From an uncultured Paracoccaceae bacterium (GTDB lineage Bacteria > Pseudomonadota > Alphaproteobacteria > Rhodobacterales > Rhodobacteraceae): 64,000 nucleotides of DNA. Shown here piece after piece: positions 5,330 through 14,599 of the stretch (positions are counted from its first letter, which is position 1; each line of letters opens with the position of its first letter). The notes beneath the pieces were generated by a model. The model saw only the letters and a program-made list of their open reading frames with translations. It made no database searches and was not told the DNA's origin. The stretch is taken from NCBI GenBank assembly GCA_937864535.1, contig CALMJS010000019.1, positions 1-64,000 on the forward strand. The letters run 5' to 3'. The position numbers and the translations under genes are program-made.

Positions 5330-6157
5330 TCAGGTGATCCGGCGGATCGAGGCCATGATTTCGTCGCGTTCGAACACCGATTTCCAGTCGTCACGCATCA
5401 GGGCGGGGATGCCGAATTCGATCGCCTTGTTACAGGCGTCAGAGAAGACCCCATCCTGAATTTTGAAGATCACCGCGCCGAGGATGTTCATGTGGCCAAG
5501 CAGGAAATCGCGGGCGCACTCCTCGGACACGCCGGTTTTCACGACCTCGTCCATCGCCTGTTTCATCACCACCAAGAGCGAGGCGCAGACGGTTTCCGAC
5601 AGGCCGGGTTCCAGATAGGCCATCTGCTCGACCGTGACGCGGTAGGTGGTGCGCACCGGCGCATAGATCGCACGGGCCACGGCATCGCCAACAGCATAAT
5701 GCTCTTCGGGGCCCTGCATCAGCGCGTTGACCACGCCCTGCGGATGGGCGACGCCGCCGAAACGGTCCAGACGGGCGGCCTCGGTGTCCTGATTGTGGTA
5801 GATCATCGGGTGACAGGGATGGGTCACGAAATAGGTGATGTCGGCGCGTTCCGGCAGGTGGCCCGCAAAGGGCGCGGCGGCGTCAAGGATGACAACCATG
5901 GTGCCAGGTCTGAGTTTATGCACGATGCCCTTGGCCACGACGCCGATGGCGGTATCGGGCACGGCCAGCAGCACCACATCCGCATTGGCGATGGCGGTAT
6001 CGGCATCGACGCATTCGACACCGACAGCCTCGAACAGACGGGCGCGGCCAGCCTCGCTGACCTCGACATGGGAGACGGTGAAATCGGTCTTGGCGAGGTT
6101 CAACGAACACCGCACCCCCATCTTGCCGCCAGCGCCGAATACTGCCACGTTTGTCAT
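5330..6157 (-). CDS. apnO: Probable D-apionate oxidoisomerase
   Basis: The 275-residue protein has an N-terminal Rossmann motif (VFGAGGKMG) and the C-terminal fold of the 'phosphogluconate dehydrogenase-like, PGDH_C' family. Members of this family beside apsD, apnL and a DUF1537 kinase convert D-apionate to 3-oxo-isoapionate with NAD+. Here apnL, apsD and oiaK lie within 6 kb, which is the main reason for the specific name. It is transcribed away from oiaK from a 115-base shared promoter region containing the candidate GntR operator at 6196. The ATG at 6157 has GGAG upstream. A sugar-acid dehydrogenase of different specificity is the alternative. Confidence 0.75.
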   Translation of the reverse strand: MTNVAVFGAGGKMGVRCSLNLAKTDFTVSHVEVSEAGRARLFEAVGVECVDADTAIANADVVLLAVPDTAIGVVAKGIVHKLRPGTMVVILDAAAPFAGHLPERADITYFVTHPCHPMIYHNQDTEAARLDRFGGVAHPQGVVNALMQGPEEHYAVGDAVARAIYAPVRTTYRVTVEQMAYLEPGLSETVCASLLVVMKQAMDEVVKTGVSEECARDFLLGHMNILGAVIFKIQDGVFSDACNKAIEFGIPALMRDDWKSVFERDEIMASIRRIT

Positions 6158-6195
6158 CTCATTCTCCTCCGGTGCCCCTCAAGGGCGTCTTGCAT

Positions 6196-6234
6196 AACTG
6201 GTATGATCAGATAATATTATCACCACGATGTCAA
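6196..6234. promoter_or_regulatory. Divergent apnO/oiaK promoter with candidate GntR operator
   Basis: The element AACTGGTATGATCA (6196-6209) is followed by the 12-base palindrome GATAATATTATC (6210-6221). On the minus strand TTGACA (6229-6234) and TATCTG (6208-6213) form a plausible but short-spaced promoter for apnO, so the element would overlap its -10 region. The identical 14 bases recur at 14685-14698 before the binding-protein gene, which marks them as a shared operator. Confidence 0.65.
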
Positions 6235-6272
6235 TCAGCCGAATGCATCCCGGCCGGACGGAAGGAAAATAA

Positions 6273-7622
6273 GTGAACCCACTGATAACATGGTACGGGG
6301 ACGACTTTACCGGCGCTGCGGCGGTGATGGAGGTTCTCGCCTTTGCCGGGATCGAAACCGTGCTGTTCGCCGACCAGCCCGATGCCGAATTGCTGGCGCG
6401 GTTCGACGGGGCAGGGGCGATCGGCATCGCCTCGACCGCGCGGACAGAGGGACCGGAGTGGATGGACGCGGCGCTGCCGCAGGTCTTTGGTTTCCTGCAA
6501 TCCCTTGGCGCACCGCTGCTGCACTACAAGGTCTGCTCGACCTTCGATTCCTCGGCGCAGACCGGCAATATCGGACGGGCCGCCGAAATTGGCCTGCGGG
6601 TGACGGGGGCACGCGCGGCGCCGGTCCTGACCGCGGCACCGCAGATGCGCCGGTATCAGGCCTTTGGGCACCTGTTCGCGGGCACGTTTGACGGGGTATT
6701 CCGTCTGGACCGGCATCCGGTGATGGCGCGCCACCCGGTCACGCCGATGACCGAGGCGGACCTGATGCTGCATCTGGCCACGCAGACCGATCTGCCCACC
6801 GGATTGATTGACCTAGAGGCGCTGTGGACCGACCCTGCCACGCGATTGTCCGCGTTGCTGGCGACGGGGGCGCGGCTGGTGTCGGTCGATAGCATGGAAG
6901 AGCGGTCCGAAGCCGCCGCCGGACGGCTGCTCTGGGACAACAGGGACGAGTTGTCCTTTGTCATCGGATCGCAAGGCGTCGAATTCGCGCTGGTCCGGCA
7001 CTGGCAGGACATCGGCCTGATCCCCCGCGTGGCCCCGCCCTCATCGGCGGGACGGGTGGAGCAGATCGCGGTGGTGTCGGGTTCGGTATCCCCAAGCACC
7101 GCCCAGCAGATCGACTGGGCCGTGACCAACGGGTTTGACGTGATCCGGCTGGATGCGGCGCGATTGATCGCCGCCCCGAACGAGGCCGCCGCCCAGATCG
7201 CCGCCGCGGTCGAGGCCGGATTGCGCTGTCTGTCACAGGGTCAGAGCCCGCTGGTCTGCACCGCCACCGGACCAGAGGACCCGGCGGTCGCAGAGGTCCG
7301 CGCCACCTCGGCCCGCACGGGGGTGCCGATGGAGCAGGTCAACAAAACCATCGGGATAGCACTGGGGCAGGTGCTGGACGGCATTTTGCGGCGATCCAGC
7401 CTGACCCGCGCGGTGATTTCGGGCGGCGACACCTCGGGGCACGGGATGCGGGCGCTGGGGCTCAGGGCGATCAAGGCGATTGCCCCGACGATCCCCGGCG
7501 CGTCGCTGTGCATCGGCTATGGCGGAGAGCATCACGACGGCCTGCAAATCGCCCTCAAGGGCGGTCAGATGGGCAGTATGGATTTCTTTGGCTGGATCCG
7601 CGACGGCGGCGGCGCGCGCTAG
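6273..7622 (+). CDS. oiaK: Probable 3-oxo-isoapionate kinase (four-carbon acid sugar kinase family, DUF1537)
   Basis: ATP-dependent kinase of the former DUF1537 family, which phosphorylates acid-sugar intermediates. The 449-residue protein has the N-terminal substrate domain (WYGDDFTGAAAVMEV, HYKVCSTFDSS, PMRRYQAFGHLFA-like segment) and the C-terminal nucleotide domain (VVSGSVSPSTAQQI, ISGGDTSGHGM, CIGYGGEHHDGLQIALKGGQ). In the described D-apiose pathway it makes 3-oxo-isoapionate 4-phosphate. The start is GTG with GAAGGAAA upstream. Its stop overlaps the stop of the convergent regulator by four bases. The next enzyme, a RuBisCO-like protein, is not in the window. Confidence 0.8.
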   Translation: MNPLITWYGDDFTGAAAVMEVLAFAGIETVLFADQPDAELLARFDGAGAIGIASTARTEGPEWMDAALPQVFGFLQSLGAPLLHYKVCSTFDSSAQTGNIGRAAEIGLRVTGARAAPVLTAAPQMRRYQAFGHLFAGTFDGVFRLDRHPVMARHPVTPMTEADLMLHLATQTDLPTGLIDLEALWTDPATRLSALLATGARLVSVDSMEERSEAAAGRLLWDNRDELSFVIGSQGVEFALVRHWQDIGLIPRVAPPSSAGRVEQIAVVSGSVSPSTAQQIDWAVTNGFDVIRLDAARLIAAPNEAAAQIAAAVEAGLRCLSQGQSPLVCTATGPEDPAVAEVRATSARTGVPMEQVNKTIGIALGQVLDGILRRSSLTRAVISGGDTSGHGMRALGLRAIKAIAPTIPGASLCIGYGGEHHDGLQIALKGGQMGSMDFFGWIRDGGGAR

Positions 7623-13587: not shown

Positions 13588-13611
13588 TCTGGGTCCTTTT
13601 GAAAAGAAGGG

Positions 13612-13639
13612 GCGGGCGCGGGAGACCCCCGACGCCCGC
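13612..13639. repeat. Stem-loop after the binding-protein gene
   Basis: GCGGGCG pairs with CGCCCGC across a 14-base loop between the binding protein and the DUF2291 gene. No T-run follows on the minus strand; it is more likely an mRNA-stabilising or attenuating hairpin than a terminator. Confidence 0.45.
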
Positions 13640-13651
13640 TTGGGAGAGAGC

Positions 13652-14599
13652 TTAGGCCGAGAGGGCGAAGGTCTCGAGCTTGGCTGCGTTGTCGCCGTTG
13701 ATCAGCACGCAATCCATCAGCTGCTTTTCGTCCTGACCGGTCGATCCGGTGGTCAGGTACTGGTCCGCCTGTTCGACGGCGATCTGGGCCTGACGGTAGG
13801 CCGGTTGGAGGACCGTCGCCTTGATCCCGCCCGCGAGGATCGAGTCGCGCACATCGTTCGACCCGTCAAAGCCGACAACGATCACATCGGTGCGGCCAGC
13901 GGCCTCGAGTGCGGCCCAAGCGCCCATCGCCATGGTGTCGTTCCCGCAGATTACGCCCTTGATGTCGGGGTTTGCCTGCAGGATGGTTTCCATTTTCTCA
14001 TAGCCTTCGGTCTGGGACCAGTTGGCCGACTGCTGCGCCACCATCGTCATGTCGGGGTATTGGTCGATGATGTCGTGATAGCCCGACGACCGGATCCCGG
14101 CGTTGGTGTCGGCCTCGCGGCCCACGAGTTCGACATAGTTGCCAGCCTCGCCCATCAGGCGGACGAACTCTTCGGCACCCAGTTGCGCGCCCTGATAGTT
14201 GTTCGACACGATCTGGCTGACGGCGATGCCGGATTCCTTGATCTCGCGGTCGATCAGGAAGGACGGGATGCCGGCATCCTTGGCCCGCTGAACGGCGGCG
14301 ACGGTGGCATCGGCACCGGCGTTGTCCAGCACGATCGCCTTGGCGCCGCGGGCAATGGCGCTGTCAAAGAGTTCGGACTGTTTGTTCGGATCGTCATCGT
14401 GGACCAGAACCAGCGTTTCATAGCCCAGCTCCAGCGCGCGCGCCTCGGCACCGACAGCCTCGGCCTTGAAGAACGGGTTGTCATGGCTGGGGGTAATAAT
14501 CGCGATCAACCCTTTTTCGGCGGCAAACACCGGACGCGCCACCGGCAGAATAGCCGTGACAGCGACACCGGCCATGAAATGACGACGGGACAGTTTCAT
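13652..14599 (-). CDS. Periplasmic sugar-binding protein, probable D-apiose binder
   Basis: Type I periplasmic binding protein (RbsB/peripla_BP_4 fold, 315 residues). The start carries a twin-arginine-like signal ([12 protein letters not shown]) ending near VFAAEK. The ligand region shows family features ([48 protein letters not shown]). The ATG at 14599 is chosen because GGAGGAA lies five bases upstream; the ATG at 14611 overlaps that ribosome site. It heads the leftward operon with DUF2291, ATPase, permease, apsD and apnL. D-apiose as ligand is inferred from those enzymes. Confidence 0.82.

Follow-up and report, generated by a model that had tools for sequence, protein, structure and literature searches.

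The window analysed here comprises bases 1-64000 of contig C19 (CALMJS010000019.1) of an uncultured Paracoccaceae bacterium (GCA_937864535.1, here G000), whose 3.7-Mb genome is assembled in 35 contigs. At positions 5330-14611 it codes for ApnO-, OiaK-, ApnL- and Gfo/Idh (ApsD-type) enzymes, an RbsA/B/C-like transporter, a DUF2291 protein and a GntR/FCD regulator. We read the set, with high confidence, as the known D-apiose/D-apionate route in which the gene for the RuBisCO-like step lies in trans. Most likely the known pathway is complete as far as can be judged from the sequence, and its RuBisCO-like protein (RLP), an OiaX on contig C22, is scattered away from the cluster.

The sequence itself shows that the genes are there, to which family OiaX belongs, that a site is shared and that OiaK and RLP co-occur; the substrates, catalysis and regulation are predicted as follows. 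ApsD, ApnL, ApnO and OiaK of the window would lead to 3-oxo-isoapionate 4-phosphate, which the unlinked OiaX on C22 would decarboxylate. Two isomerases encoded on contig C30, one triose-phosphate isomerase (TIM)-type and one RpiB/DerI-type, would then bring the product into central metabolism, and the GntR-family regulator of the window probably controls both the cluster and the distant OiaX via one shared putative operator. According to PMC6302742, 3-oxo-isoapionate 4-phosphate is decarboxylated, or transcarboxylated/hydrolysed, by RLPs when D-apiose is broken down.

The distant OiaX gene and its link to the cluster

The original prediction stated that no RLP is encoded in the cluster and left open whether it lies elsewhere, was deleted or is replaced by an unrelated and thus new enzyme. 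It also proposed a search of the whole genome for RLPs. A Pfam RuBisCO_large search of the genome (E <= 0.001, all 5 of 5 candidates scored) found no RLP in the window. The same 64 kb searched by tblastn with two OiaX proteins yielded nothing better than chance (best E 1.1) and no OiaX remnant, so the absence from the cluster was borne out. The single RuBisCO-family match in G000 is on contig C22, at about 38.5-39.8 kb of 71 kb. An RLP in an adjoining part of the same cluster, which the prediction had named as evidence against itself, was not what the search found, the gene being in the middle of C22. A position just past the contig edge was considered, as the window starts at base 1 of C19, and rejected: OiaX is separated from the closer end of C22 by about 31 kb, and its distance to the cluster would be at least about 36 kb even if C19 and C22 abut.

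The C22 gene scores 772.7 bits against the OiaX model (NCBIfam: NF042437; cut-off 700) and covers profile positions 1-412 of 412. By this curated model it is a full-length OiaX, that is a predicted 3-oxo-isoapionate-4-phosphate decarboxylase. Its product shares 73-79% identity with three OiaX proteins linked to apionate clusters. The stretches DFIKDDE, SIIKPSLG and SGQWGGQ, which we take to be RuBisCO-type active-site stretches, are invariant across the alignment of these four OiaX proteins.

Besides its family membership, the C22 gene is connected to the cluster by a short sequence. The 14-mer AACTGGTATRATCA (R = A/G) has exactly three matches in the 3.7-Mb genome, one in the gap that separates ApnO from OiaK, one ahead of the transporter operon and one upstream of the distant OiaX, and the reversed pattern used as a control has none across the whole genome. 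Both window sites read AACTGGTATGATCA and the site upstream of the C22 OiaX reads AACTGGTATAATCA. One further site, with a mismatch, is found on contig C14 (C14:188569) near a gene that, from its translation, looks like glyQ, and we regard the site as a chance match. From these sites the cluster and the distant OiaX probably form one regulon, linked by this putative operator.

For a wider view we used 80 named OiaX loci, which are the best 80 of 552 confirmed relatives and hence the nearest ones and not a random sample. In 62 of the 80 loci the 250 bases upstream of OiaX contain an exact copy of the shorter 12-mer CWGGTATRATSA, versus 8 of 367 random 250-base pieces; with at most one mismatch allowed, the numbers are 68 loci and 12 pieces. 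The random pieces were taken from the same 80 loci, and some of their matches may be other true cluster sites. As the motif was discovered in these same upstream regions, 62/80 shows how widespread it is and does not test it independently; that AACTGGTATRATCA has no further exact match in the genome carries more weight. A GntR homologue lies in the fetched OiaX flank of 72 of the 80 loci, and from this conserved presence the window GntR protein is probably the one that binds the putative site. Promoters of the apionate regulon appear to be marked by CWGGTATRATSA, which could help to locate RLP genes outside a cluster.

OiaK and RLP genes also occur together across genomes. Of 149 genomes from the family of G000, 20 reach 400 bits or more with the OiaK model, and each of these also carries an RLP scoring 379 bits or higher; one of these RLPs (in G014) contains an internal stop. 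The two genes are no more than 11 kb apart on a single contig in 18 of the 20, but not in G000 and G104. At class level, the kinase is detected at E 1e-100 in four of 385 genomes including G000, and an RLP at E 1e-60 in precisely these four; at most four first-look candidates per genome were scored in this search, so that misses are possible. In total, 23 distinct genomes have a strong OiaK-type match (20 from the family and three further ones from the class), and every one of them has an RLP.

An OiaK-type gene with at least 40% identity is found in the fetched OiaX flank of 77 of the 80 loci, some of these flanks being cut by contig ends. The three exceptions are Bauldia litoralis (L041), with the kinase on another contig, Rhizobium lentis (L119), with strong kinases on other contigs and a divergent kinase (280 bits) near OiaX, and L107, where the kinase is about 11 kb from OiaX on the same contig. 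RLP and strong OiaK are thus on different contigs in three other genomes, L041, L119 and G104, and an RLP apart from its OiaK is uncommon but not unique. B. litoralis resembles G000 in this separation and has its OiaX near a TIM/RpiB pair. In G104 (L033, L034) OiaK is on a different contig from an RLP/ApnO pair, and the RLP is below the OiaX cut-off.

Four further genomes of the family (G088, G092, G135, G137) carry RLP genes of about 387-400 bits beside divergent kinases, whose match to the OiaK model is weak or partial (31-209 bits per stretch). These sets possibly belong to a different RLP pathway.

Cluster genes and comparison with the closest cluster

The features of the cluster are listed in Table 1. 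The gene families named in the original prediction (ApsD of the Gfo/Idh type, ApnL, ApnO and OiaK) agree with our family matches and with the conserved gene context, which together support the predicted pathway assignment. The best NCBIfam match of the window kinase is OiaK, with 472 bits compared to 167 for 3-oxo-tetronate kinase and 74 for D-threonate kinase. The strong OiaK match in G000 is found only on C19, and the 3-oxo-tetronate kinase of this genome is a separate gene at C19:216 kb. NF049900 is the sole NCBIfam family that matches the window lactonase at 1e-10; the longest open reading frame of this gene is 8369-10297 and its start codon is not settled. ApnO presumably belongs to the PGDH_C family, and the ApnO candidate has both a PGDH_C match and the conserved place in the cluster. 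The Gfo/Idh protein has generic Gfo/Idh matches and was assigned as an ApsD candidate by gene context. Homologues in the fetched flanks of the 80 OiaX loci are common for ApnO (68), Gfo/Idh (67) and the sugar-binding protein (SBP, 61). NF042435, which was tried as a model for OiaC, corresponds to the 3-dehydroshikimate dehydratase QuiC and is irrelevant here.

Table 1. Features of the candidate D-apiose/D-apionate cluster in the window
Feature	Position	Strand	Evidence or remark
ApnO-type D-apionate oxidoisomerase candidate (PGDH_C)	5330..6157	-	PF16896, 222 bits; 95.6% identity to the G039 gene
Putative operator AACTGGTATGATCA, between divergent ApnO and OiaK	6196..6209	+	exact match
OiaK-type 3-oxo-isoapionate kinase candidate (SBD_N/NBD_C)	6273..7622	+	PF07005/PF17042; NF042436 (OiaK), 472 bits
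GntR/FCD-family regulator, probable regulator of the set	7619..8347	-	PF00392/PF07729
ApnL-type D-apionate lactonase candidate	8369..10111	-	NF049900, 617.6 bits; 76% identity to the G039 protein
Gfo/Idh/MocA dehydrogenase, ApsD candidate	10108..11127	-	PF01408/PF22725/PF02894
RbsC-like permease, internal in-frame deletion of ~231 bases vs G039	11140..11970	-	
RbsA-like ABC ATPase, two deletions (~333 in-frame, ~238 bases) vs G039	12008..12943	-	
DUF2291 predicted lipoprotein	12940..13587	-	PF10054; 85% identity in G039
RbsB-like sugar-binding protein (SBP)	13652..14611	-	PF13407; 94% identity in G039
Putative operator AACTGGTATGATCA, ahead of the transporter operon	14685..14698	+	exact match

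The OiaX-type D-apionate pathway was reportedly described by Carter et al. in 2018 (Nat Chem Biol 14:696). G000 shares with it the enzyme set, an OiaX above the curated cut-off, and a transporter and GntR regulator homologous to those of most of the 80 OiaX loci. It differs in having OiaX on another contig than ApnO, OiaK and ApnL and in the deletions of its transporter genes.

The closest cluster that we fetched, L030, belongs to G039, another genome from the family of G000. The genes for SBP, DUF2291, ATPase, permease, Gfo/Idh, ApnL, GntR, OiaK and ApnO are in the same order in both, with 76-96% protein identity across the full-length genes. In G039 an OiaX is encoded divergently from the SBP gene and all transporter genes have their full length; the window differs in both respects. 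A LacI regulator occupies the place beside the window SBP gene where G039 has OiaX. When bases 1-6100 of L030 were compared to the window with blastn, only 5991-6100 matched, adjoining the start of the SBP gene.

We built trees of 29 OiaX and 26 OiaK rows, hand-picked from 84 and 78 extracted sequences. In the OiaK tree the window kinase pairs with that of G039 (support 90/80). In the OiaX tree G039 and L045 form a pair (100/99), with the G000 OiaX outside it (91/93). Forcing the G000 and G039 OiaX together was rejected by the approximately unbiased (AU) test (p 0.005), for a clade picked after the pairwise identities were seen. The C22 OiaX thus appears to belong to a closely related but distinct line; an old relocation would fit this, as would a replacement of the cluster's own copy. 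The ratio of non-synonymous to synonymous substitution rates (dN/dS) versus G039 is 0.03-0.15 for the four enzymes and OiaX, all of which have full-length open frames.

Two of the transporter genes are shorter than in G039. The ATPase is missing about 333 bases of its first nucleotide-binding domain, in-frame, and about 238 bases near its C-terminal end, and the permease about 231 bases inside, in-frame. The three deletions fall between 11140 and 12943, and the ATPase lacks conserved parts of both nucleotide-binding domains. In the 28 of the 80 other loci that have an ATPase of at least 60% identity, the first missing part is present in 27 and the other two in 28 each. We found no close copy of the missing parts elsewhere in G000, where the best other matches to the ATPase and permease are paralogues of at most about 41% identity over most of their length. 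The remaining parts have a dN/dS of 0.06-0.10, like the intact genes. A plasmid collection, which may leave out records of the same genome, gave no second independent sequence of the cluster: none of 141 matching records has one place covering 80% of the query. Both recent loss and assembly error are possible as the origin of the deletions.

Weighing the alternatives

Several observations weigh against the known route with OiaX in trans. Around the C22 OiaX no apionate genes were recognised (open reading frame list of C22:29-48 kb and Pfam scans of ten proteins), and its neighbours, among them a cyclase, a 3-hydroxyacyl-CoA dehydrogenase and parts of a branched-chain-type transporter, look unrelated to the pathway. 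The OiaK and ApnL candidates fall below the cut-offs of their models (700 for NF042436 and 750 for NF049900), and neither the ApnO nor the Gfo/Idh protein matches a specific NCBIfam model, the latter giving no ApsD match. The transporter is damaged in this assembly and the route may be unused. On C30, the RpiB/DerI-type protein scores 235.3 bits against NF051858, short of its cut-off of 240, the TIM-type protein is matched by the triose-phosphate isomerase model above cut-off, with its proposed LerI role resting on context, and the surroundings of the two genes yielded no operator-like site above the chance level. Finally, a composition test that speaks for the route, the tetranucleotide correlation of 0.94-0.97 between the C22 OiaX stretch and three window pieces, is weak, with a G039 stretch also reaching 0.92-0.94 against the window. 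The OiaK score is not discriminating here because no OiaK match in the 149 family genomes reaches 700. As for the C22 neighbours, the cyclase, the 3-hydroxyacyl-CoA dehydrogenase, a glycerate-kinase-like and an anthrone-oxygenase-like protein have homologues in 0 of the 80 other OiaX loci, and a neighbouring short-chain dehydrogenase/reductase in four.

The most substantial of the alternatives, unlikely as we consider it, is a decaying cluster that lost its own OiaX and has a broken transporter, with the C22 OiaX as a leftover or separate copy that does not support growth on apiose. This overlaps with the known route in what is encoded and differs in how it is used. The three ATPase/permease deletions, whose missing parts have no close copy in the genome, speak for decay, as do the trees, in which OiaK pairs with G039 whereas OiaX does not. 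The dN/dS of the full-length enzyme and OiaX frames and the operator-like site kept before the distant OiaX speak against it, and the deletions could be assembly errors. Rather unlikely too is a dispersed regulon with the importer disabled by the three deletions and OiaX elsewhere, whose genes may serve an intermediate that enters otherwise (e.g. D-apionate or its lactone) and not imported D-apiose.

We regard it as very improbable that C22 is contamination and the organism itself without an RLP. The assembly has a contamination estimate of 4.89%, and ATPase matches with identical scores at C8:46530-47975 and C24:46664-48109 suggest duplicated sequence in it. Yet three C22 pieces correlate with three window pieces at 0.93-0.97 in tetranucleotide composition, which makes contamination unlikely by a weak test (a related genome reaches 0.92-0.94), and the operator-like site of the window cluster also precedes the C22 gene. 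Just as improbable is that the set acts on another branched sugar, e.g. D-hamamelose; an RLP that functions as an oxygenase on this sugar has reportedly been described, to judge by a title (Kim et al. 2018, listed in PMC10176493). The window proteins below the OiaK and ApnL cut-offs would allow for this, but the RLP exceeds the cut-off for OiaX, and no model scores better than OiaK and ApnL with the respective window proteins, in a comparison not extended to the hamamelose proteins.

An unrelated window enzyme in place of the RLP, the novelty that the original prediction had raised, is hardly credible. Only the lack of an RLP in the window speaks for it, whereas the genome holds a full OiaX above the cut-off with the shared site, and none of the 23 genomes with a strong kinase match is without an RLP. 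We therefore rejected it. Among the alternatives given there, a location elsewhere is supported and a replacement enzyme found no support. The case closes a false lead: the absence of a pathway enzyme from its cluster is no evidence of a replacement enzyme.

Candidate downstream isomerases

The known route with OiaX in trans would further draw on two genes of contig C30, where a second TIM-type gene adjoins the RpiB/DerI-type gene at C30:50.9-52.1 kb. Homologues of the TIM gene are present in the OiaX flank of 28 of the 80 loci, which suggests that the TIM-type protein is LerI. We assume that it acts on L-erythrulose 1-phosphate.

OiaX together with TIM- and RpiB-type genes is also found in L107, a metagenome-assembled genome labelled Acidimicrobiales (Actinomycetota), in a set of loci that is otherwise mostly alphaproteobacterial.

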